Source: Alloascoidea africana (lineage: Eukaryota; Ascomycota; Alloascoideomycetes; Alloascoideales; Alloascoideaceae). From it: a stretch of DNA of 64,000 bases. A program made the translations under genes and the position numbers. The DNA lies in assembly GCA_030581615.1 (NCBI GenBank), contig JAKTTT010000044.1:1-64000 (forward strand). Direction: 5' to 3'. Below, piece by piece: positions 28,774 through 61,585 of this stretch; within the stretch, counting starts at the first letter, position 1; each line of letters opens with the position of its first letter. The notes under the pieces were generated by a model. That model made no database searches, had not been told where the DNA came from, and worked only from the letters and a program-made list of their open reading frames with translations.

Positions 28774-28845
28774 TCGGTAATAGTTTAGTGGCTAGAATTT
28801 CCGCCTGTCACGCGGGGGACCGGGGTTCAATTCCCCGTTACCGAG
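28774..28845 (+). tRNA. tRNA-Asp (anticodon GUC)
   Basis: Cloverleaf of 72 nt: acceptor stem TCGGTAA pairs with TTACCGA, discriminator G. The D arm has the A-box TAGTTTAGTGGCTAGAA, the anticodon loop is CTGTCAC with GTC at its centre, and the T arm reads CCGGGGTTCAATTCCCC (B-box GGTTCAATTCC). No intron. CCA is not encoded, as usual in eukaryotes. It stands alone at the end of the gene-poor tract. Confidence 0.97.
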
Positions 28846-28851: not shown

Positions 28852-29674
28852 GTCCAATATTTAAATTTTTTGATTTAGGCAGATTCTTCGCGTGGACAGA
28901 AATGAATGCCTACCTAATTCACAGGAATATTTTTAATCCGGAGACGACATCATCTTGGCCGGCAATGTGGCGTTGAAGGGTAAAGGGAACAAAACCTATT
29001 GGACCATGAGGACTCCGAGCATTCGCTCCACGAAGCTAAACCTTCAAGTATGTAAATGCTTGACAGCGAAAACAAAGAATCGCGTAATGAACCATGGCAA
29101 AATTAAAGAAATACATATTTCTACATAGAAAATCAGGCTCTTAGTGACATTCATGGAGCATCATCGCAAAAGATGATGTAGCACATCAAGTACTCGAGTG
29201 ATCAAAACTATGAAAGGAACGCGCTCCCCCAAAACTCAGAGAAGTTCTGAAGAAAATAGAAACATGCTATATGAATAGCATTTTGGCACCTTGCAGAAAA
29301 GGGGTTCTTCCCCGCATTTCGGGTGAGAACTAATCGGAAGATAAAGACTCGAGAAGGCCAAACTACGCTGAAAAGATCAGGTTCCAAAAGGCTTCGTGGG
29401 GCCGAAAGGCGGCCTAGATGTGCTCTGCTCCTGCCCCAGGCCGCATTTTGAGGAAGAGGAAAATTCCCCCAGACTTTTTTTTCGTGTTTACTAGGAACGA
29501 AATTGAAAGCCGAGAAGCTGGCCGAGAGACATTTGTTGGGATATTACCCGGATGTCCAACAGTTGAAGCTAACCTTAAAAAGCAATCCTGGTTTATCAAG
29601 ATCGAACACATATCCGTAGCCTTTGTGTTGCTTCTCTAATTCTCTTAGCTGGTCTTTTGTCTCAGTTGTTACGG
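28852..29674. other. Gap between tRNA-Asp and the acyltransferase gene
   Basis: Upstream region of the acyltransferase gene. Overlapping short frames on both strands around 29414-29639 look like chance. No domain or RNA gene seen. Confidence 0.45.
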
Positions 29675-32332
29675 ATGTCTCTCGAAAAAGATACGGATAA
29701 GATAAACTTGTTGGAAAATGCATTTTCTAGTCCATCAATACAGCTGAATTTGAATCATACCTATTTTCAAAACTCTAAGAATGAGCTACTGGAGCAAGAG
29801 TTGGAAGCCGAGCACTTGGAGGAGCTGCCATTGCCTTTGCGAGTGCCGCTTTCAAAGGACAGCAGCAAAGATGATGTGAAACTTCGGGCTGAAATTGAAG
29901 TCAAGTTTGTGCAGAGTTTTGTCAACTCAGTCAATACTTTTCTATCTGGTAGGAAAAACTCAATGAAAAAGTCACTTGAACAGCTTAACGCCAGCTTGAG
30001 TCCTGCAAAGAGGAAAGGCTCCTTTACATCTAGTGTGCTGCAATGGAGCAGATGCTACAAGACTAATGTGGGACCTGTTCCAATATTTAACTCAGAGTTC
30101 TATAAAACGATGAAAGATGATACCTTGTCGCATGAAAAGGTGTCTGCCAAGATCAGGGAACTGACAGAAACGGTTGTGGAGAACGAAATAAGAGATGGGT
30201 TGCTGGATCCGAAATGCAAGTTCGAACGGCTGGAACAAGTATCTGAATGGCTAAACAGACAATCTAGCCTAGTTGCAGATAAGATGATTTGCCGATTTAA
30301 CCATATCTCGTTGTTAAGGATAGCTTATGGGACCATCGTTCTTGCTTTGAGGAAAACATATAATAGCGGCATCAACGTTTCGCGTAAGGAGGTAGAAAAA
30401 CTCCTAGAGCTTGCGATATATGCTACGAAACAGAAAAAGTCTTTGGTGTTTCTTCCCTGTCACAAGTCACATGTGGATTATATTGTTATGCATTTGCTAT
30501 GCCTTAGGATGGGAATTCTTCTGCCCACGGTCGTTGCAGGGGAAAATTTAAATGTCGATGTGTTTGGCCCAATTTTGCAAAATATTGGAGCCATGTTTAT
30601 TAAACGTGGATCCGGTAAGAAAGCAGGTGATAAGACGAGTGAAGAAAAACTTTACGAAACAATAATGGCGACTTACATCCACCAGCTCTTGGCAAAAGGC
30701 ATGAATTTTGAAGTTTTTGTCGAGGGAACACGATCGAGAATTGGAAAACTTTTGCCGCCAAAACTTGGGGTGGTAAAGATTCTGGTTGATGCGCTTCTTT
30801 CTGGAGACGTTGAAGATTGTCATGTGGTCCCTATTTCTATCCAGTACGACAAAGTTATAGAATCAAATGATTACACCAGTCAGCTTCTAGGGAAAGAAAA
30901 ACAAAGTGAAAGCTTTATGAGCATTTTTCAAACTGGTATTGAAGCATTTGGCGGAAAATGGAATTTGGGGAAGGTCGATGTTCGTATTAGCCATGGCTGG
31001 AGCCTGAAAGAGATTATCTATGAAGAGCTTGGATCCGAATTACAGTCTCAGGCACTAAACTCATCTATCATCTCAAAGAGCAATCGGAAATATTCTCAAA
31101 TTATTAGTGCAGTTGGATACAAAGTGTTAAATGAGATTAACCGAATAAGCGTTATTACGCCAACTGCTATTGTAGGTACCATTCTCTTGTCGCATTTGAC
31201 TTCTAACGGCCTTGTGGGAGGTCAGGGTGATCGTGGTATCGGGTATTATGATCTCTTGACTTCTGTCAGGTGGCTGGTTTTGCGAGTTAAAGAAGCAGGA
31301 GGAGAAATTGATGTTTTCGAATTGGTATACCCCCAGTTACTAAGTGAAAAAGATGTTTTTTCACTGGTACAGTTCCGTTTGATTGTGGCAGAAGCGCTTA
31401 ATGTTCTTGGACCAGAAATTATAAGAGCTGTTGTGCCAAAGGGATATGATACCTACTTTGGCAATAATTCAAAGACGAAGAGCGGCAAGGAGGAGAATAA
31501 GGCTTGGGAGAAGCGTATCACGGAGTATACAATAGATTTGAGCTCTTCCACACAGGACAGGGATGAATTTGAGCTGATCTACGAGCCAATTTATTGCGTG
31601 ATGGACTCATTTCAGCTCAGTTACTATCGAAATATGTTAATCCATTTATTTATTAACGAGTCAATTGTCTGTGTCTCGATAAATTGCTTGCGACAAAAGG
31701 AAAACCTTTCAAAGATCAATTACCAAGACCTTTCTGACAAGGCCCAATTTTTATCGAGATTGCTATCGAAAGAATTCGTCTTTGGGACACAAGGCCTTAA
31801 AGTTAATCTTGACGCTACTCTGAAGGTATTGGAGTCACAACACATTCTCAAGATTGAGAATGATAGTAATCATGAGAAATTAAGGGATGCTGTAATTAGT
31901 ATAACAAACCAATCTGTGTCGCATAAACAGTTTCTCTTTTATTGCTCTCTGGTATGGCCGTTTGTGGAAGGATATTGGCTTGTTATTCTTGCCATTTCGA
32001 CAATTTTGGCAAGAGCAGAGGACGTGGAAGCCGATCAAGAGATTAACGGTATTGAAATGCGACAGTTTATTGATTTCACACAATTGCTCGGGAAAACCCT
32101 TTATCATGAGGGTAAAATTGAGTACTATGAAGCGATAAACAAAGAACTGATCAGAAATGCTCTGAATTATTACATCTCAATAGGAGTTGTTTCGTCAGTT
32201 CCTAATGGTAAAGACCACGTTGTCGCTGTTAGTACGAGTAAAACTGAAATACATGTGTTGCGAAAGAAAATAGCCTGGTTGAAAAGCATGAACAAATATC
32301 AGGATAGGTACAGGCTTAAAGCCTTGCTATAA
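29675..32332 (+). CDS. PlsB/DHAPAT-type glycerol-3-phosphate acyltransferase
   Basis: Transfers an acyl chain to glycerol-3-phosphate or dihydroxyacetone-phosphate, the first step of glycerolipid synthesis. Product 885 residues from the ATG at 29675; a few in-frame codons lie upstream but no earlier ATG. Catalytic block I is HKSHVDYIV (about residue 262; HX4D type), then GENLNVDVFGPILQNIGAMFIKRG, and block III FVEGTRSRIGKLLPPKLG (about 347-364), then VVPISIQYD. These match the PlsB, mitochondrial GPAT and GNPAT group, not the Sct1/Gpt2 enzymes of S. cerevisiae. Length lies near PlsB (807) and GPAM (828). No clear membrane helix near the N-terminus and no SKL-type peroxisomal ending (ends RLKALL), so location is open. 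Single exon. Confidence 0.9.
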   Translation: MSLEKDTDKINLLENAFSSPSIQLNLNHTYFQNSKNELLEQELEAEHLEELPLPLRVPLSKDSSKDDVKLRAEIEVKFVQSFVNSVNTFLSGRKNSMKKSLEQLNASLSPAKRKGSFTSSVLQWSRCYKTNVGPVPIFNSEFYKTMKDDTLSHEKVSAKIRELTETVVENEIRDGLLDPKCKFERLEQVSEWLNRQSSLVADKMICRFNHISLLRIAYGTIVLALRKTYNSGINVSRKEVEKLLELAIYATKQKKSLVFLPCHKSHVDYIVMHLLCLRMGILLPTVVAGENLNVDVFGPILQNIGAMFIKRGSGKKAGDKTSEEKLYETIMATYIHQLLAKGMNFEVFVEGTRSRIGKLLPPKLGVVKILVDALLSGDVEDCHVVPISIQYDKVIESNDYTSQLLGKEKQSESFMSIFQTGIEAFGGKWNLGKVDVRISHGWSLKEIIYEELGSELQSQALNSSIISKSNRKYSQIISAVGYKVLNEINRISVITPTAIVGTILLSHLTSNGLVGGQGDRGIGYYDLLTSVRWLVLRVKEAGGEIDVFELVYPQLLSEKDVFSLVQFRLIVAEALNVLGPEIIRAVVPKGYDTYFGNNSKTKSGKEENKAWEKRITEYTIDLSSSTQDRDEFELIYEPIYCVMDSFQLSYYRNMLIHLFINESIVCVSINCLRQKENLSKINYQDLSDKAQFLSRLLSKEFVFGTQGLKVNLDATLKVLESQHILKIENDSNHEKLRDAVISITNQSVSHKQFLFYCSLVWPFVEGYWLVILAISTILARAEDVEADQEINGIEMRQFIDFTQLLGKTLYHEGKIEYYEAINKELIRNALNYYISIGVVSSVPNGKDHVVAVSTSKTEIHVLRKKIAWLKSMNKYQDRYRLKALL

Positions 32333-51192: not shown

Positions 51193-51791
51193 TTATCCCA
51201 ATCCTCCCCATGCTCCACGTATCCGTCTGGCCAATTGAATATCCTTTGCCATGATAGTGACGCGTTTGGCATGTAGGGCAAGCAAGTTTGTATCCTCGAG
51301 TAAACCCACGAGAAAGGCTTCTGCTGCTTCTTGTAAAGCGAGAAGTGCAACAGATTGCCATCTTACGCCATACGTGCTATCAGCATTCATAAAATCATCC
51401 GCAACTTCACGGCAAAGTCGTGCAAATGGTAACTTTTGCATCAGTAAATCCGTCGTCTTTTGATACTTGCGGATCTCTCGAAGTGCAACTGTCCCTGGAC
51501 GATACCTTCTTTTATGTTCTGGTGTTGGATCTCCTGCTACATTCATCAATGTTAGGTCAACTTTTTCCTTCCAAATGCTTGTAATATATTAATTGCTTGT
51601 TTTTTAAAAAACATACGCCGGTTTCGAAGAATGTTGTTGTTAAGACTCCTCCTGATTTGTTTCCCTCCTGTACTCTTCCTGGCGGCAATCTTCCGGGGCT
51701 CCCGTCCAGATGAACTTCCCTGGTTAACTCTACTCGGAACCTGCTTACCAGATTTACGGCCCGGCTTCGGCGTTTTCGATAGACGTGCCAT
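51193..51791 (-). CDS. CSE4: CSE4, centromeric histone H3 (CENP-A), two exons
   Basis: Replaces H3 in centromeric nucleosomes and seeds the kinetochore. Exons 51791-51617 and 51536-51193; the 80-nt intron has donor GTATGT, branch CCTAAC and acceptor GTAG, phase 1. Product 172 residues. The fold domain starts [22 protein letters not shown] and continues [14 protein letters not shown]; loop 1 is [10 protein letters not shown], two or more residues longer than in H3, and the C-terminus reads [11 protein letters not shown] instead of the H3 ending GERA. These mark CENP-A rather than H3. The 65-residue tail is basic and unusual in carrying [16 protein letters not shown], like the H3 lysine 9-14 segment. 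Divergent from the oxidoreductase gene by 136 bp. Confidence 0.94.
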
Positions 51792-51927: not shown

Positions 51928-53043
51928 ATGACGGTGCTTCGTTGGGGAATTGTGGGCGCTGGGAACATTGCAAGCCAGTTTGTAAATGACCTGGTGAACG
52001 CTTATTTGCTCAGGAAGAGCAATAATCAACAGTTACCGATCCACATTGTCACAGCAGTGGCTGCTCGAGATTGCAACAGAGCACAAAATTTTATCGATGA
52101 AAAGATCTATGCAAAAATTGGGAAAAGTGTTGATGTTCCCGAGACTTTGGCCTATGGATCGTATAACGACCTTTATAAAGATCCAAATGTAGATGTTGTC
52201 TACATTGCACTCCCACATGCGCTTCATAGAGATCAGGTTCTTGCTGCTGCTTCAAATGGGAAGCACATTCTTTGCGAAAAGCCCTTTTCTATCAATGCAA
52301 AGGAGACTAAGGGAATGATATTCGCGGCGAAACAGAGCGGTGTTTATCTTATGGAGGCCGTGTGGACAAGATTTTTGCCTATTGTGCTGGAACTCCAAGA
52401 TCTGGTTCACAACCAACAAGTTTTGGGGAAAGTACATCGCCTGTTTGCGGATTTCTCATATGATATCGATCCAGATACTCTTACCAAGGAATCCCGAGTG
52501 GTCAGCAATTCTCTTGGTGCTGGTATGCTACTGGACGTGGGCGTTTATTGTCTGACCTATGCGAGGCTACTACTCCATACTCCATCAGATTTGGGAAAAG
52601 ACGATAACTACTCAATTGTCGCTTCACAAACTATCAAGGACGGCGTGGACTATATAACAAGCATGATATACAAGACCGAGTGTGGTAAGCAGGGGATTTT
52701 AACCACTAGCATATATACCGATACTCCAAAAGAGTTCCTTAGACTTGAAGGATCCCTTGGAACATTAACAGTCTCGGGGGTCCATTCTGCAAGGCCCAGC
52801 GAATACCGGATTGAGTTTAAAGACAAGACAAAAGCGCCAATCTCAAAGACAATACCTCAGGTGAACAGTGCTGGTGATGAGTTCGTTGGGTTTATATATG
52901 AAGCAGATCAGGTTGTAATTGATATTGAGAATGGCAAGAAGGAGAATGAGAATGCAATTCCCTTGGCTGAAACGGTTGTGTTGATGGAAATTATGGATAA
53001 AGTACGGAAACAGTGTGGACTTGTCTATCCTCAGGATGTGTAG
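51928..53043 (+). CDS. Gfo/Idh/MocA oxidoreductase, dihydrodiol/D-xylose dehydrogenase type
   Basis: NADP-dependent dehydrogenase of the group containing dimeric dihydrodiol dehydrogenase and fungal D-xylose 1-dehydrogenase. Product 371 residues. The Rossmann start is WGIVGAGNIASQF (Gly-rich loop, residues about 6-18), followed by VVYIALPHALHRDQVLAA and the catalytic-Lys motif CEKPF (Lys 118). MEAVWTRFLPI and SLGAGMLLDVGVYCL are typical for this subgroup. No targeting signal, so probably cytosolic. Single exon; the leader is AT-rich. The substrate cannot be told from sequence. Confidence 0.85.
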   Translation: MTVLRWGIVGAGNIASQFVNDLVNAYLLRKSNNQQLPIHIVTAVAARDCNRAQNFIDEKIYAKIGKSVDVPETLAYGSYNDLYKDPNVDVVYIALPHALHRDQVLAAASNGKHILCEKPFSINAKETKGMIFAAKQSGVYLMEAVWTRFLPIVLELQDLVHNQQVLGKVHRLFADFSYDIDPDTLTKESRVVSNSLGAGMLLDVGVYCLTYARLLLHTPSDLGKDDNYSIVASQTIKDGVDYITSMIYKTECGKQGILTTSIYTDTPKEFLRLEGSLGTLTVSGVHSARPSEYRIEFKDKTKAPISKTIPQVNSAGDEFVGFIYEADQVVIDIENGKKENENAIPLAETVVLMEIMDKVRKQCGLVYPQDV

Positions 53044-54820
53044 CTTTATTGTCTATTATTTATTTTTTTTGTCCCATGTATAGTGCCTTTTTGCTGTTGA
53101 CAAAACAAACTCATCCACCGCAATTGAAATAGGTTTTCCCCAAGTTTTTTTGATTTAGGATAATGCCATTTTTAATGCAATGCTCCAGAGTTTATTGTTT
53201 ATGCCTCTTGCATTCGCACATAAACCTCGGTAATGGGTGATGCATCTCTTGTTTTTTTTTCGTCTCTGGTTTGGCTTTAGCCATTGGGCTTGCTCAGTGC
53301 GGAATCTTAACAAAGAATTTATACCTGGGAATCATACTCTATATAAAATGTCCATTATGATCTCAAAAAAAGTTGATGCTTTGAGGACTATTCTCATACT
53401 GTAGATCTCCTAGATATTAAGCGGTTTCCTGCTAGTAGAAGTCAAAAAAAAAAAAAAAGAGGAAATGTACTATGTGCTTCGCTCGACTTGAGCATGAGCT
53501 GCACCTGCCTACGCATTTCAACAATCAAAAAATAATTATCATCCAATTTTCCATTATGTTACGGTAGAGTCATCAAAGCAGGATGGAAAAAGGTTGTTAT
53601 TATATAATCTTTCAAACAAACAAGGCTGGTGGGCATACCCAATTGCTTCTTTGCCTTACTGTTTTCCCTCCACGTTGGAAAGGGAGACTTGTGAAATTGA
53701 ATTTGTTTGTAACAAATTCAACGATCTGCTAAGAGCCCGTTAAAGGAATAGTAAAGCCGCGCCTGTGCGACGTAGAGTCCTTGGTTATTGCCATTGCGAA
53801 TGACGATGCTGCTCTACTTGTTTGGATGCTTTGGTCCCAAAGAGTAGTCTGCTAACAATTGTAAACGAATATACGCGTCGCATGGTGGGAAACAGGAAAA
53901 GAACGGTTGGGAATTATTATTCATGAGGCGGGCAGAAAGAGTACAAAAGTGGAACATCTCGAAGAAGAAGAGGAGGAGAAAAAGGAAACATAGCAAATCC
54001 CATGCAGGCCAAAATGAAAACAAGCAGAAGTTGTCCAGCCGCTGGCAGTACCAGAGCCGATCCATCACCTTGCCATCAGGGCACCTCTCCGGCAGCGCGA
54101 GCACAGCTGAAAGGGATGAAGATGAAATCGGCAAATGACTGTTTTGTCCCCCTCCAATCGTGTTTGATGGGAGACCAAATAGATGAAGACCCAAGTATTT
54201 TGTCCAGCACTTACCAGAAATTCCCGGTTTGGGCCAAACGCAGGCTTGTATTTTCATACCGGCACATCGCTTCCAGATCAGGCAGCAAAACAACAAGCAA
54301 ACAGGCCCCCTCTTCTCTGATTCTCTTCGCTTTTTTATTTTGTTCGCGTGTCTGGGGCCGCTTTCGTGTAGCGGGCCCGGGCTGGGAGCTCGCTCTCCGG
54401 GGTGTGTCGACTGCGACTTCCCAGGCCCATTGGGCTGCGTGTCGACGAGATATGGTTTGAACCATAACCTAGCCGCCCAAGGCTAACCCAGAATGGGCTA
54501 GCCGCCAGCCAACAGGCTAGCCATCAGGCCCGACAGAGAGAAAGAAAGCGATGATTCCACTTCTCTGCGCTGCTCTTTTTCTTCCATCTCTGCCAGTATT
54601 AAATAATGTGCTTTTCGAGGAGAATGTCTCATTGGTCCGAATCCGGGTAAAGCACATATTTTCGTGCGGACAGAAGAGCCAACCTCTCGATTCTCCTCCT
54701 CGACGCCCACTACTTGATAGCCCCAATCCCCAGTTTTCCTCCCCCAAGTTCTTCTTCTGGACACTGTGCTAACGTTAGAAACAAGTCGATCTACGCTCAC
54801 GTGGAGTTAAATGTTCACAT
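53044..54820. other. Gap upstream of the Gag-like gene
   Basis: 1.8 kb with several chance frames on both strands at 53814-54486 that overlap one another and lack domains. GC rises at 54330-54540, where two GGCTAGCC palindromes sit 11 bp apart (54496-54503, 54515-54522). A CACGTG E-box lies at 54798-54803, about 20 bp before the next ATG. No long terminal repeat was recognised. Confidence 0.45.
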
Positions 54821-57397
54821 ATGGATCCCGGCAAGCCCTCACTAGTAGTCGAACAGTATATCAACGATGGGTTCTCGGATAAGAAACTGCTCAGCTTCCT
54901 CGTCTGGGATCAGGCTGTCGTGAAAATGGGAGGCATCACTGTTCGGGAACTTCTCAAGGAATACGCAACCTCGTACCAGATAGTAGCGCCGGAAGAAATG
55001 AAAAACGAGATAGAAGTATACTCCCGCTGGCTCTTCAACTGTTTTGGCTTCCCTCATGGCTCTGCTGCAGAGAGGCTGCTACTTTGTACTTCTCAAAAAA
55101 AAGACGTGCGCAGTTTTCACGGTTATCATTCAATGGTTCTGGAATGCTTTAGGGAAATAAACCTTTACTCAATGGACGCAATCGACGCGCGGTTGCTGTT
55201 AAAGAATGCGAGACAGAGAAACCTTTCCTTTCGACAGTATTGGCAGCGGTTTTTAAATGACCTCAAGTCCGCAACTACTCTGTTTGTTGACGTGAGTCCT
55301 CCAGATCTGGCCCGCTGGTTTCACGAGGGGCTTAATGAAGATCTAAAGCCGTATCTGCGCGCAGAGCTGATAGACGAGGAGATATCGTCAACCGCAGAGT
55401 TGAAAGATACAATTGTTGAGAAAATGAGGATATTCAAAAAGATAAAATTACGGTCAAAAACATCAAAATCCAATGCTAGATCCCGTTCACCGTCTCCTGT
55501 TAGGCGCGGACGTGTGGAAACGTCCACGCCTAGAGCCTCCAACCCCCATTGTTCTCCAGTTCCGCTCCCATCTCCAACTTTATCCCCAACTCCTCTTTCT
55601 CCTAGTTCACGCAGGAGACGACCTCGACCTCGAAATTCTCCAAGAGATAAGCAACCGTGGAAGGCTTGGAACTTGACGAAGGAAGATTTTTTTAGATACA
55701 AAAGAGAAGAACGGTGTTTTAAATGTGGAGCACTCGATCACACATCTTCTGATTGTTCTGGGGAAAAGAACGGAGAAAGCACTACAGGAGTGGACGATGA
55801 GGAAGAGGAAGAGGCTGCTCGGTCTAAGTTTAATATGAGCAGCAGTTTGATCGAAAATGTTAATGAAAGCATAATGAGAGGCTTTAACGAGACAAAGTAC
55901 TATGATTGTGAGAATGAAAATGAAAATGAAAATGAAGCTGAAGCTGAAGCTGAAGACAAGGAACATGGCCTAGAACTAGATAATTATGATGGGACAAAAG
56001 AAACGGAGAAGCCGGTATTGGAAAAAGAAGAAAAACAAACCAATGAAGTTGATGAAAATGACAAATCGATCGATCCACTTAGCTTAAGTTTTATGAGCGA
56101 TGCTATTAACAAGTCCTCCAGAGAAGGAACGCCAAAGCTGGCTAAGCAAGCAATTCCTAAACTCCATTATAGTACCTCTGAAAGGCTTTCATTATCAGGG
56201 AGATCAGATACAACCACAAAGTCACGTCCCCAAACGCCTACTCCAGCTCCTAGACATTCTGAGACCCAAACCTCTCCCAGTACTCTGTCCTCGTTCAAGG
56301 TGTCAAGTCGCGGTACCCCAGGTTCGGAAACAAGGGTTGGATCGAGAGTCGCACAAATATCTGCCAAGTTTGAAAATAATCTCTCATCCTCTGTACGAAG
56401 TTCTAATAGCGTGTCTTTCATGAGCAACAGCTTTTCTTCCCCTTCTAATACGAACCCAAGCAATATCTTGAGGGCCAGCATCAGTTCTAGCAGCGACAAA
56501 GGCGTTCTGGATGAAGGAACCTCCAAGCTTTCAGGTATGCTGAGCCATTTGACGCTATCTGATGAGGAGAATATGTCATGCTCTTCACCTTCTGCGTCCT
56601 CGTCCATTAATACCAGATGCACAAGCTCCAGCAGCGCCTTAAGCATAAGCACAAGCACGAACAGTGTAGTCAACATTGTCAGTGTGCCACCAGCTAACAA
56701 AGCTGGATCTGGTGAGAAGGCGAGCGATGAGAAGGAATCAAAGTGTGATGACGAGAAAAAAGATTTCACAAGCGTTTACTCAAGCTTGAATGAAGATGTG
56801 TATCCCCAGTCTCTCGATTTGCCGCTGCAGTTCTCGATCCAGTCCTCCACGCTTCGGGACTTTTTGGAATCCTTTGTTGAGAAAACATTCTTTTTACCCT
56901 ATGATTCTATTTTGTTCTTTTACTACATGAAATCATTTGCAAAGTCCGAAAGTGATAATGATTGGCTGAACAACAACAAACAGATCTTCAGTTCAGTTAC
57001 GACTGCAAGAGAACTGGCGGATGCTATTTTGGCCACACAAGAGTCGCCTTATGATAAGCTGTCCTCATTCCGGGAAGAAATGATGACATTAATTCACATG
57101 AGGTGTGAGACTGACTATGAAGCAAGGAGAATTATTTTCAAGATACAGACATTTCGTTACATGCTCAAAGAACTTTCGGTTGACTCTGTTTTGTCTCTAC
57201 TTCAAGCGTTTCCTTTCTTATTCCATCCCCAATTGGTGAACAAGATTCGTGATTTGAGGGAAGAAGCAAAAACAATTAAGACAGAGGATTTTTCAAGTCT
57301 GGTGCCTCAGTTGCTTGAGGCTATTTCTAGTTGTCCTTCCTTGCCCAAACACATAAATGAAAAAAAGGCACTTGAAAATCAAAAACGCTCAGAATGA
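54821..57397 (+). CDS. Gag-like zinc-knuckle protein, apparently domesticated from an LTR retrotransposon
   Basis: Product 858 residues, one open frame that looks whole. Residues about 60-210 resemble the Ty3/gypsy-type Gag capsid region: LLLKNARQRNLSFRQYWQRF, DLARWFHEGLNEDLKPYL, then STAELKDTIVEKMR. A basic RS/SP-rich linker follows (SKSNARSRSPSPVRRGR), then a retroviral-type knuckle CFKCGALDHTSSDC (CX2CX4HX4C, residues 299-312). The middle (about 320-680) is disordered, acidic then Ser-rich, with an ENENEN run. The last 180 residues are again helical and their pattern (SFREEMMTLIHMR, YEARRIIFKIQTFRYML, LLQAFPFLFHPQLVNKIRDL) looks like a second capsid-type half. No protease, reverse transcriptase, integrase or flanking repeats are seen, so I read it as a host gene of retroelement origin. 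Function unknown. Confidence 0.7.
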   Translation: MDPGKPSLVVEQYINDGFSDKKLLSFLVWDQAVVKMGGITVRELLKEYATSYQIVAPEEMKNEIEVYSRWLFNCFGFPHGSAAERLLLCTSQKKDVRSFHGYHSMVLECFREINLYSMDAIDARLLLKNARQRNLSFRQYWQRFLNDLKSATTLFVDVSPPDLARWFHEGLNEDLKPYLRAELIDEEISSTAELKDTIVEKMRIFKKIKLRSKTSKSNARSRSPSPVRRGRVETSTPRASNPHCSPVPLPSPTLSPTPLSPSSRRRRPRPRNSPRDKQPWKAWNLTKEDFFRYKREERCFKCGALDHTSSDCSGEKNGESTTGVDDEEEEEAARSKFNMSSSLIENVNESIMRGFNETKYYDCENENENENEAEAEAEDKEHGLELDNYDGTKETEKPVLEKEEKQTNEVDENDKSIDPLSLSFMSDAINKSSREGTPKLAKQAIPKLHYSTSERLSLSGRSDTTTKSRPQTPTPAPRHSETQTSPSTLSSFKVSSRGTPGSETRVGSRVAQISAKFENNLSSSVRSSNSVSFMSNSFSSPSNTNPSNILRASISSSSDKGVLDEGTSKLSGMLSHLTLSDEENMSCSSPSASSSINTRCTSSSSALSISTSTNSVVNIVSVPPANKAGSGEKASDEKESKCDDEKKDFTSVYSSLNEDVYPQSLDLPLQFSIQSSTLRDFLESFVEKTFFLPYDSILFFYYMKSFAKSESDNDWLNNNKQIFSSVTTARELADAILATQESPYDKLSSFREEMMTLIHMRCETDYEARRIIFKIQTFRYMLKELSVDSVLSLLQAFPFLFHPQLVNKIRDLREEAKTIKTEDFSSLVPQLLEAISSCPSLPKHINEKKALENQKRSE

Positions 57398-58330
57398 GCC
57401 TAGGGAAGTGGCGCAATGGTGCTATTAACTAGTTACCCAAGTTTATCGCAAGATCAAGCTTTTTTAAAAAATCCTCTTTGTATCCTTGGACCCTTGGTTT
57501 GTTTGACCTGTCAGTAAAATGTTGATGTTGACTTTTCTGCTAGTTTATTTGACAATTTGTTATTTCCTCTTTACGTTTTGATTATTGCCACTTGCCGTTG
57601 CTGTTGGTAGTGGTGAAATGAATTCATTTTTTTGCATTTTCATATTCATTCTGTCTTTTGCCTTTATCCTTTTTCATGTTTTGTTTTTTTGTTTGCAATT
57701 TTACTTATTTTCATATGACTAAGTTGACCATATATTTATTGAAAGAATGGAAAATAAAAGTTTGGTTGTTTTTTTTCGATTTTACAGTACGTGTCGTTTT
57801 CCTTTTCCATTCTTCAATTTGCAAACCACAACACACAAGAAAACAACTAGCCTCCTCAACGTTCTTTACATTACACTAAAAGCTCTATTCGGATCATACT
57901 TGACTTGCACTTGATTGGTTATTAAAAAAGATCAAGCTGTCTCGCTTTGCTTTAATCACTACGTTTTTCATTTACCAACCTGGTCTGATTTCACTTATCA
58001 TTATTTAGGAGTTTTCAAAATACAAATCTTTAAAATTAAAACCAAGACAGAGACTAATCTTATGTTTATGTTTGACTCAGGTTGATTGTACAGCTCTAAT
58101 TTAATCATAATCCATCAATATTTGATAGCCAGTTCTTTTATTCAGATAGAACAAGACTTAATGCTAGTAAAAAGACAAACCCTAACAAACCTGTTAGTTA
58201 AAGAGCAACTACCTGAAAATAAAAGTAATGAAAGGAAATGAAACAAAAATGCTCATGTCATGCGACAAAGACAATAATTATATACTGCGAAACCAGAAGA
58301 TGAACCAAATTAATGAAAAAGGATCACTTT
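57398..58330. other. Gap between convergent Gag-like and GT62 genes
   Basis: Two facing 3' flanks, T-rich. Only short chance frames. No retroelement remains recognised next to the Gag-like gene. Confidence 0.45.
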
Positions 58331-59668
58331 TCAAACATGCTTGACTTTCCAACTTCCTCCAAGGCCAAAACAGCCGTATCCAAGCGCACGCGCAACATAA
58401 CACATAGATTCTGTTTCTATGCCATCGTATCCTTCTTCCATGTTCCACTGGGTACCAACAAGATAAATAGGGCTAAAGTTGATGCCGAAACGAACCAACT
58501 CTGCTTTTATATACAAAATCGTACCGCCAACGCTGTCAAGGATGAAAATGTCGTCATCAGAAGCGTACTGTTGAACAAACTGCTCGTAATGTTCTGCCTC
58601 CTCGTCTCGGGGAGTAAAGACAAAGTCGGGATTGTCTTGCGGGTTTTCCAACTTTGCAAGATCTTCTTGCGATGGGCGTACCCGAGTTCCTCGCCATGTG
58701 TTTTTGTCGTAATCTATTTCCCAGCCATTTCCTTCACGTATCTGGCACCGAGCTGTGAGAATTCCTGGTTGTAATTTGTTGCGTCCTTCGTCATGTTGGT
58801 TGAAGACTACATCTTTTCCCGTGCCACCTTCGAGTTCTGAGCTGGCCTCCGATATCGAAAGCATCCGTTGTATGAGCCCTTTGTCAACATGCCATACATC
58901 AGCATCCAGCCATAGTACGTGGCGCTCTGTCGTCATAGTGGCCAACATGAGGTAATTCCTCATCTGTGCGATCTGTCTCCTTCGTTCTTTCTGGAGTTGC
59001 AGTTCATGTCTATTTTCGCGAGTTATTTCGACTTTGAAGTTCCCAGGGTTGTAAATTAAGTGGATCTTGTGGAATACTTTGAGATAGTTAATACTCTCAT
59101 CATCAGTGTTTCGGTCAGGGTGCATTAGGTCATTCTGATATTGAAGAAAGCTTTCTTCAGATGATGTTAAGACGCCTATAGTTGCGCTCTGTGCTGTGCC
59201 ATCCTCAACCATAGATTTATAAAGGAGTTCTAAATGGTCGTTAAAAGATCTGTCAATTCCGTCCATTGAGCCCCAGGAGCCTCTGTCGTACGTTGCTGTC
59301 AGCACTAAGAGATCAGAGTGCTGAACAGGACCTGATGCCGTGTATACCCAATGGTGCACCGATCCATCTGTAATGTACTCTTTCAACACCGAAGAGTCTA
59401 TTGTCGTGTATTCCAACATTCCAGAGACAGAATCTGTAGAGAGCGAGTCGGTAGAGCTAATGCTAGTAGTGTTTTCTGAAACGCTTTCCCCTTCCTGGTA
59501 GGTCTCTTGGTCGTTGGTACTATCTGCCGCCATGTCGAATTTCAAAGAGTTGATATACAGGACGCTAGTAGTGATCAGAACAAATACTAGTGCACCAGAA
59601 AAACGAAAATGACGAAGAAAGCTTCTTCTGTACCCATATTTGGGAACGGAAGCTGTTTGTTTGAGCAT
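58331..59668 (-). CDS. GT62 alpha-1,6-mannosyltransferase (Mnn9/Van1/Anp1 family)
   Basis: Golgi type II membrane protein of the mannan polymerase complexes that extend the N-glycan outer chain. Product 445 residues. Short cytosolic tail with KYGYRRSFLRHFR, membrane anchor at about 24-42 (SGALVFVLITTSVLYINSL), Ser/Thr-rich stem, then the GT62 domain: DLLVLTATYDRGSWGSM is replaced in relatives by ILILTPL-type starts, RRRQIAQMRNYLML, HVLWLDADVWHVD (DXD-like), GNGWEIDYDKNTWRG, VGGTILYIKAELVRFGINFSP and EEGYDGIETESMCYVARALGYGCFGL. The family has three branches in yeast; the Ser/Thr-rich stem and length suggest Van1 or Anp1 rather than Mnn9 (395), but I leave it open. Confidence 0.9.
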   Translation of the reverse strand: MLKQTASVPKYGYRRSFLRHFRFSGALVFVLITTSVLYINSLKFDMAADSTNDQETYQEGESVSENTTSISSTDSLSTDSVSGMLEYTTIDSSVLKEYITDGSVHHWVYTASGPVQHSDLLVLTATYDRGSWGSMDGIDRSFNDHLELLYKSMVEDGTAQSATIGVLTSSEESFLQYQNDLMHPDRNTDDESINYLKVFHKIHLIYNPGNFKVEITRENRHELQLQKERRRQIAQMRNYLMLATMTTERHVLWLDADVWHVDKGLIQRMLSISEASSELEGGTGKDVVFNQHDEGRNKLQPGILTARCQIREGNGWEIDYDKNTWRGTRVRPSQEDLAKLENPQDNPDFVFTPRDEEAEHYEQFVQQYASDDDIFILDSVGGTILYIKAELVRFGINFSPIYLVGTQWNMEEGYDGIETESMCYVARALGYGCFGLGGSWKVKHV

Positions 59669-61585
59669 GAGAAGAGCTGGCTGTGCTAGGGATTATTAGT
59701 AGTTGCTTTATGCTCAGAATCAACGGCCAGGCCACGACCACTGTAAGAAAATTAAAGGCTAAATAATGATTAACGAGTGGATAGAGATAAAGGAAAAGAG
59801 AGAGAAGAAAATAGCAGCTAGGATGTGATATATAAAGATTATGGGAAGATTAAATTTCAGTATTACCATGCTCAGAGACAATCTCAATCTGCAACTGACT
59901 AATCTTAAAAAAAAATAAAAAACTTTAAATTATGCTGAATATGGAAACGTTCAGTTCTTGCTGTGCTAATAAAAAAAAATAAAAATTGGTATGTCATTGA
60001 ATTGGGCTATATCTTGTGAGAAAAAGTCCAAGGTCATTAAATGTATACACAGGTCCCTGCTTCTAACAAGGTAGAAAAGAGAAGTTGGCAGTCTTCGAAC
60101 ATGTCTACCCTCGCTTTCTCGATCCAAAGCATTCAACAAGGATTGAAAGCTTTATTCAACTAAACTATTGCAGATCCAGCTTTTTCAACCACGAGACCCT
60201 CTGGCATGCAAAAGGAGAGTAGCGAGGTAGGACCTAGCCAGATAAGCGTGGTCTTGTTCGGTACCTCTCGTTTCTGTCCTCAGGTTTGCGAGATATATTA
60301 ACGCCCGGGAGTGGCCTAAACTAACCACATGGCTCAAATCCTTTCTTGTCACTGGCAGTCAAAGCCGACTGGGCAAGTTAATTAAGACACATTCTCAGGA
60401 GCATGAACGTGTTTGGCCAAGCTCAATCCAACACTCTATAAAAAAGTCTAAGACCAGCAGATCTCTATAATCTCCAGCGGATTTATTGTTGTTTTGTACT
60501 TTTTTGCTTTTTCTCTGTCGTCCACTCCAAGTTATCTCACCTGTGCGAATAGGTACTTAAACTCTGATTTCAACATACCAACTTGTTTTGCTCCTGAAGA
60601 GAGTTCCCAGGCCAAAACGTTTTCCTTGGTAGATTTTCGATGATACAGGCCTTTCGCAAAATCAGTGCCACTTTAGACATTCCTGTACCTCGTAAGTGGG
60701 CCTGCTATTCGTGTCTACATTCGCAACAAGCCGCGGAGCCATTGTTAAGACTTAAGCTATACGTTTGCTCCTTCTGTCAAGCTTTATCTCCTCAGTTGCG
60801 GTCCCGACAAGCTTATCGCAAAACTCCGCTCCAGGAATCACAGTGAAACCAGAAGCAAAACAACAATCTCTCTTCAAACCGCCCTGTGCGTGAGAAAGAG
60901 AATCCCTGTTCCACTGAAAAACACACAAGAATTCACTCCCCTGTTCTTTTCCACCCACAAGCGCAAGCTCACAGTGTCAAACCTTACTACTCCCCGCCAA
61001 CCGATGCCAACGCTTAAATCTGAGATCCGATCTAGGTTCCGTCCAATGGCACACTGCGCCTTCGTGCTGTGTGCAGTGTTCAAGACAATGGCTTGGTTGT
61101 TGCGGGATCCACTGCCAGAGGGCATACACATTTTGAGTTGGCAGATCTCCACAGGTATGAGCTGTTTGAACTTGGGATCGTCTGCTAGTAGAGCGTTTCT
61201 AGTGCTTTGTAAATTCCAACGAGCGCATCCTTGGAATACCCACACGAGTGACTTCCAGTAAGGGAGGGGAAAGCGACTTTGTGAAACGGCATGTCCAAAG
61301 CCATTGTTTTAGAATTGAATTTGGGTCACAATCAGCCCGCTGTATGCTCTCTCAGATCACTGCTTAAAGGTTTAAGCAAGCTGAACTCAAGATTCTCCCA
61401 CAAGCTTAAAATTGAGCTTCTATGCCAAGGTGATTTGTCCAAGTGGAAATGGTGGGCCTGTTTATTATTACTATAAAATACTCTAGCGCTTGTATTGTAT
61501 GATGAAGATATATACTCAGCAAGAAAAACTACAACCATAAATAGACAGTAAATACAAGAGAGACTTGGCAATTCATGAAGTCATG
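59669..61585. other. Gap between GT62 and small heat-shock genes
   Basis: 1.9 kb. The left part is the GT62 promoter. A TATAAAAAAG box at 60437-60446, an ATG at 60640 with a GTAAGT donor (60692) and a CTCCTCAG acceptor (60795) could make a 49-residue product ending at 60893, but no homologue is known and no good branch point is visible. Overlapping frames at 60874-61261 on both strands look like chance. Confidence 0.4.

Follow-up and report, generated by a model that had tools for sequence, protein, structure and literature searches.

Results

A solo gene with a possibly Gag-derived front half

The window analysed here is a stretch of 64,000 nucleotides from the yeast Alloascoidea africana (contig JAKTTT010000044.1, positions 1 to 64,000), and it contains an open reading frame (ORF) of 858 codons that we consider, with a probability of about 0.5, to be an old and diverged Gag-derived solo host gene whose product binds RNA, associates with itself and serves as a scaffold. 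Its first ~315 residues, which comprise a capsid-like part, a basic linker and one zinc knuckle, would descend from an old Ty3/gypsy-type Gag. The first 320 residues are read most economically as a Gag-like front half followed by a knuckle, the gene standing alone with neither pol nor long terminal repeats (LTRs), and the sequence supports this reading in part. Because the match to the Pfam profile Retrotrans_gag lies below its cut-off, and Ty3_capsid is not listed for the protein, we infer this origin without assigning the gene to the Gag-derived class. The parts of the ORF are given in Table 1.

Table 1. Parts of the 858-codon ORF, with positions in the window.
Feature	Position	Strand	Basis
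Entire ORF (858 codons and a stop), an orphan gene present once	54821..57397	+	translation, genome search
Residues 58-132: four predicted helices, putatively in place of a Ty3-type capsid N-terminal lobe	54992..55216	+	AlphaFold2
Residues 133-209: capsid C-lobe-like stretch (SFRQYWQRF, ARWFHEGL, AELKDTI)	55217..55447	+	Pfam match below cut-off, helices, block spacing
Residues 210-278: basic S/R/P-rich linker	55448..55654	+	read from translation
Residues 280-298: Gag-like pre-knuckle segment WKAWNLTKEDFFRYKREER	55658..55714	+	hhalign, PSSM
Residues 299-312: CX2CX4HX4C zinc knuckle	55715..55756	+	exact pattern, PF00098
Residues 313-654: S/T/E/N-rich middle of low complexity, presumed disordered	55757..56782	+	read from translation
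Residues 655-848: helical C-terminal domain	56783..57364	+	AlphaFold2, single sequence

The frame starts with ATG and has no internal stops; under a simple base-composition estimate, a stop-free run of the 858 given codons has a chance of 3.8e-24. Within the 23.2-Mb genome the ORF is single copy, being its own sole match at E≤0.001, and neither of its flanks finds a second match at the same threshold. Its neighbours are an oxidoreductase gene and an Anp1 (GT62) gene. A search of positions 52500-60000 for direct and inverted repeats of at least 20 nt (exact seed 12) found none. The matches listed for the genome number at least 38 for RVT_1, at least 21 for Retrotrans_gag and at least 26 for Ty3_capsid, all three counts being lower bounds, and none of those listed lies on the contig of the ORF; one of the 17 integrase core matches does, about 126 kb away. 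Thus, an earlier note on this DNA was right to describe an intact long frame with neither pol parts nor terminal repeats nearby, and the gene is confined to one locus with no LTR, no pol and no repeated flanks, as a domesticated host gene would be. Scans for LTR-like patterns, bacterial-type promoters and terminators, Rfam families and tRNAs returned nothing bearing on the ORF, the tRNA found at position 28774 being distant from it. A reading of CTG as serine was rejected: an EF-Tu-like gene elsewhere in the window has three CTG codons, and all three appear to sit at positions that fit leucine.

The capsid-like part and the zinc knuckle

The motifs on which the earlier note had based a Ty3/gypsy-type capsid (SFRQYWQRF, ARWFHEGL and AELKDTI) are all found in the translation, as is SLVPQLLEAI, which it had placed at the end of a second such domain. 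From residue 58 onward, and excluding two earlier predicted helices from the count, a low-confidence AlphaFold2 model of the front part (mean pLDDT, the predicted local distance difference test, of 41.0) contains 4+4 helices, at residues 58-75, 82-91, 99-112 and 123-132 and then, in the C-lobe-like part, at 137-151, 160-170, 176-187 and 192-209. The Ty3 capsid core is described in PMC6525542 as having 4+4 helices with a four-helix N-lobe. When the front part alone is used as the query, Retrotrans_gag matches residues 116-173 over profile positions 42-97 of 97, with E 0.054 and 14.2 bits; over 24,736 models, this E-value corresponds to P ~2e-6 if it is treated as a single directed test. The match has a fitting position and register, since it precedes the knuckle. 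In addition, the first two capsid blocks follow the Gag order, with a spacing of 24 as compared with 19-22 in Gags.

Comparisons with a profile built from 16 Gag sequences point in the same direction. The score of residues 110-212 was reached by 41 of 2000 shuffles for the C-lobe and by 18 of 2000 for the whole capsid, and that of residues 1-212 by 66 and 26 of 2000, respectively. When the long frames of the window, this ORF among them, were cut into 196 pieces, one piece of the ORF had the highest C-lobe score and the second-highest score for the whole capsid. The single-sequence model of the front part, at its mean pLDDT of 41.0, gave no significant match in a fold comparison for a two-lobed capsid (double-SCAN). 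The Gag-like reading of the front half thus draws on motif spacing, the sub-threshold Retrotrans_gag match and the pre-knuckle signature described below, and has no significant capsid match behind it; the helices of the front part fit a Ty3-type capsid in order and spacing, but its sequence argues only weakly for one.

The perfect knuckle and the RS-rich linker of the earlier note are both borne out, the former as an exact instance of its pattern and the latter by direct reading of a basic, S/R/P-rich translation. The knuckle lies C-terminal to the capsid-like part, and PF00098 scores it at 23.6 bits in a genome search (cut-off 20.8) and at 18.3 bits, below the cut-off, in a full-length scan. 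Residues 283-316 match a resident Gag profile, A1, with E 5.1e-5 and probability 67 (hhalign). By a position-specific scoring matrix (PSSM), the 19 residues before the knuckle score 2.2, higher than all 26 of the 26 other knuckle contexts read from the genome (best -7.8); when these residues were shuffled 100,000 times, 75 of the shuffles reached this score. One of the other contexts, L071, scores only -18.3 although its contig also carries Gag matches, and the pre-knuckle signature is therefore not universal among Gags.

The C-terminal block

The earlier note had further proposed that the C-terminal block repeats the C-terminal half of the capsid, so that the protein would be a two-ended Gag. 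Our comparisons do not bear this out. The single-sequence AlphaFold2 model of residues 655-848 has ten helices at a mean pLDDT of 54.6, which is poor, and in no sequence or model comparison did the block yield a significant capsid match. Aligned with each other, the N- and C-terminal parts of the ORF obtain a local score reached by 259 of 500 shuffles and a glocal score reached by 331 of 500; against the Gag profiles, the scores of the C-terminal part are at chance level or close to it. The block thus shows no sequence likeness to a capsid domain beyond that of shuffles, and within the genome it comes closest to a protein that is not a Gag: a 572-codon frame at locus L043, at a non-significant E of 0.125. 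The raw score of that pair, 85, compares with a shuffle mean of 39 and was reached by 0 of 2000 shuffles; because the frame was picked as the best in the genome, where its E is 0.125, we regard the likeness as a lead only. We take the L043 protein to be of the DnaJ type and the matched stretch to be TPR-like.

It is accordingly very improbable, in our view, that capsid-type domains stand at both ends of the protein, separated by a long flexible RNA-binding middle, an arrangement that could form or cross-link lattices, or bridge or cage RNA-protein assemblies.

Searches for relatives

Searches of a protein collection poor in such Gags used the whole protein, for which 7985 candidates were scored and none reached E≤0.01, and residues 1-330, for which none of 6442 candidates reached E≤1, with no separate query for the C-terminal domain. 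Even the resident Gag profile drew just 9 proteins from this collection at E≤0.001, and so the lack of protein relatives says little. An IMG/VR scan returned 17 pattern matches, none of them a relative. Relaxing the threshold in its own genome to E≤10 brings a single further match for the C-terminal part and four for residues 1-320, the latter all over the S/R/P-rich linker and none at a place listed for Retrotrans_gag or Ty3_capsid. Among PDB sequences, the whole protein finds three knuckle proteins, none better than E 1.7, residues 1-220 find a single unrelated chain at E 1.1, and the C-terminal part finds nothing at E≤10. The Pfam matches of residues 1-220 to PAS_3 and DUF5752 are below cut-off, and we take them as chance.

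Other elements and genes

One short LTR-flanked element of the genome, at L050:4121-6482 (G000:C3:446620-448981), apparently encodes Gag only. Its 221-nt direct repeats differ by 2 mismatches and enclose a 305-codon Gag frame with a knuckle, a perfect 301-nt inverted repeat and no other frame of at least 150 codons. The repeat has 24 genome matches, its own two included, and no target-site duplication is evident at the repeat ends as called. This element presumably resembles the TR-GAG elements of plants.

A solitary 232-codon Gag frame with a basic tail and no knuckle lies at L051:4327-5022 (G000:C38). Its Ty3_capsid score of 82.8 bits places it far closer to known Gags than the window's ORF; no repeats of at least 25 nt were found in the surrounding 4.5 kb, and no RVT_1 match is listed on its contig. 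It is a candidate for another host or relic Gag. Oppositely oriented Gag frames lie close together at G000:C29:261839-263174, at C14:122654-123212 and at L041 (the end of C41). Two of these three places are near contig ends, and the frames are candidates for inverted copies or assembly edges.

Contig C87 carries an element (L049 and L005, G000:C87) that resembles a long interspersed nuclear element (LINE), with a first ORF of 433 codons and a 1103-codon reverse transcriptase frame in which an endonuclease is recognized by eye. Kinship of the window's ORF with this element was rejected: the parts shown of that first ORF have no CX2CX4HX4C knuckle, and it is absent among the genome matches of our ORF. 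On the other strand the element adjoins a putative pyruvate-decarboxylase-like gene.

Elsewhere in the ORF itself, a tandem repeat at 55915-55954 encodes an E/N/A run in the presumably disordered middle, and at 56258-56275 the middle reads SETQTS, which we take to resemble a binding motif of dynein light chain (LC8). The window also encodes a histone-fold protein at 51193-51549 on the minus strand (PF00125, E 6.9e-38), presumably a centromeric histone H3 variant of the CENP-A/Cse4 kind. The frame at 29657-32332 on the plus strand encodes a glycerol-3-phosphate acyltransferase whose GPAT_C domain is matched by PF19277 at E 3.2e-60, a type unusual for yeasts.

Discussion

Several results weigh against descent from Gag. 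The 14.2 bits of Retrotrans_gag fall short of the 24.1-bit cut-off, and Ty3_capsid is not among the matches of the protein; the total capsid block score of the front part does not exceed that of shuffles; our own capsid profile tests on the front part span the range from chance to ~1 in 100; and the pre-knuckle score of 2.2 lies below the leave-one-out scores of the Gags themselves, 19.3-39.2. It is quite possible, at odds somewhat short of even, that the ORF encodes instead a host RNA-binding protein that evolves fast, has a single zinc knuckle and is unrelated to retroelements, its resemblance to a capsid in front being accidental. Several whole-domain comparisons with Gags are indeed near chance, the top Pfam match of residues 1-220 is a PAS profile and not a Gag one, and the 49 PF00098 matches of the genome search imply many other knuckle-bearing frames. 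An accident is harder to reconcile with the order and register of capsid and then knuckle, with the E-value of 5.1e-5 to the resident Gag profile across the knuckle region, and with a pre-knuckle signature closer to Gags than any of the other 26 contexts, though the low score of L071 tempers this last point.

We think it unlikely that the ORF, instead of being a host gene, is a remnant or atypical Gag frame from a retrotransposon that is still mobile or was so until recently. Ty3/gypsy elements are indeed resident in the genome, as is at least one Gag-only element whose repeats are nearly identical, and codons 1-212, with a high GC content at third positions (GC3) of 0.528, depart from the host set in codon choice as resident element L034 does. 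Against this reading, another resident element, L038, is host-like in codon choice, and the ORF has no surrounding repeats, no second copy of the gene or its flanks, no pol match nearby and 858 intact codons.

If the ORF is a Gag-derived host gene, then by analogy with their families the knuckle and basic linker would bind RNA and the capsid-like part would self-associate, and the C-terminal helical domain may recruit a partner. The long low-complexity region together with a separate helical domain would suit an RNA-protein scaffold. It is less likely that the protein poisons the assembly of resident Gag particles, the way in which DRT2 and p22 act on Ty1 elements, because the resident Gags share little detectable sequence with it outside the knuckle region.

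With the Gags of Ty3/gypsy elements or metaviruses (residents L034, L037, L038 and L041; Ty3 capsid, PDB 6r22) the protein shares the order of a helical capsid-like part, a basic linker and a single CCHC knuckle, the last preceded in both by an L-S/T-x-E-x3-R-like segment. Unlike them, it has no significant capsid sequence match, no pol and no LTR, and it carries an additional middle and C-terminal domain, so that it has 858 residues as compared with about 300 for resident Gag-only frames. The proposed use of a capsid-like domain by its host is shared with Arc, PEG10 and other animal Gag-derived genes; their folds and relatives are known, whereas the ORF protein gave no significant fold match and no protein relatives in our searches.

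The earlier note considered a two-ended Gag protein new in a yeast, a view that calls for some trimming. In the portions of the literature on yeast and fungal Gag-derived genes open to us, with subscription journals thinly covered, we found no two-ended capsid protein of a yeast. A domesticated yeast Gag as such has been published: according to PMC10951436, DRT2 of Saccharomyces cerevisiae derives from Ty1' GAG and has a restriction function. Like the present ORF, if its Gag origin holds, DRT2 is a solo Gag-derived host gene of a budding yeast. It extends over a known element's capsid C-domain and lies between solo LTRs (PMC10951436), whereas our ORF has no LTR that we could find and the resident Gags are not detectably similar to it outside the knuckle region. 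A fungal Bel-Pao Gag-PEX14 fusion, mentioned in PMC10799480, also joins a Gag piece to other protein sequence; its partner is a known gene, whereas that of our ORF is a helical domain with no significant match. Because this fungal co-option screen reports many fusions of host genes with transposable elements, with a higher proportion of genes in Saccharomycotina, the kind as such is already known. The excerpt of PMC10085805, on fission yeast elements, adds nothing further on Gag-derived host genes.

If the front half does not have a capsid fold, the ORF is one more orphan zinc-knuckle protein. If the fold is confirmed, the gene would add to the few Gag-derived host genes that we found reported for yeasts, and it would represent a type distinct from DRT2: far from the resident elements, with its knuckle retained and with a large new tail. 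In that case the gene would also make it possible to study, in a tractable organism, the use that a host makes of an old Gag.
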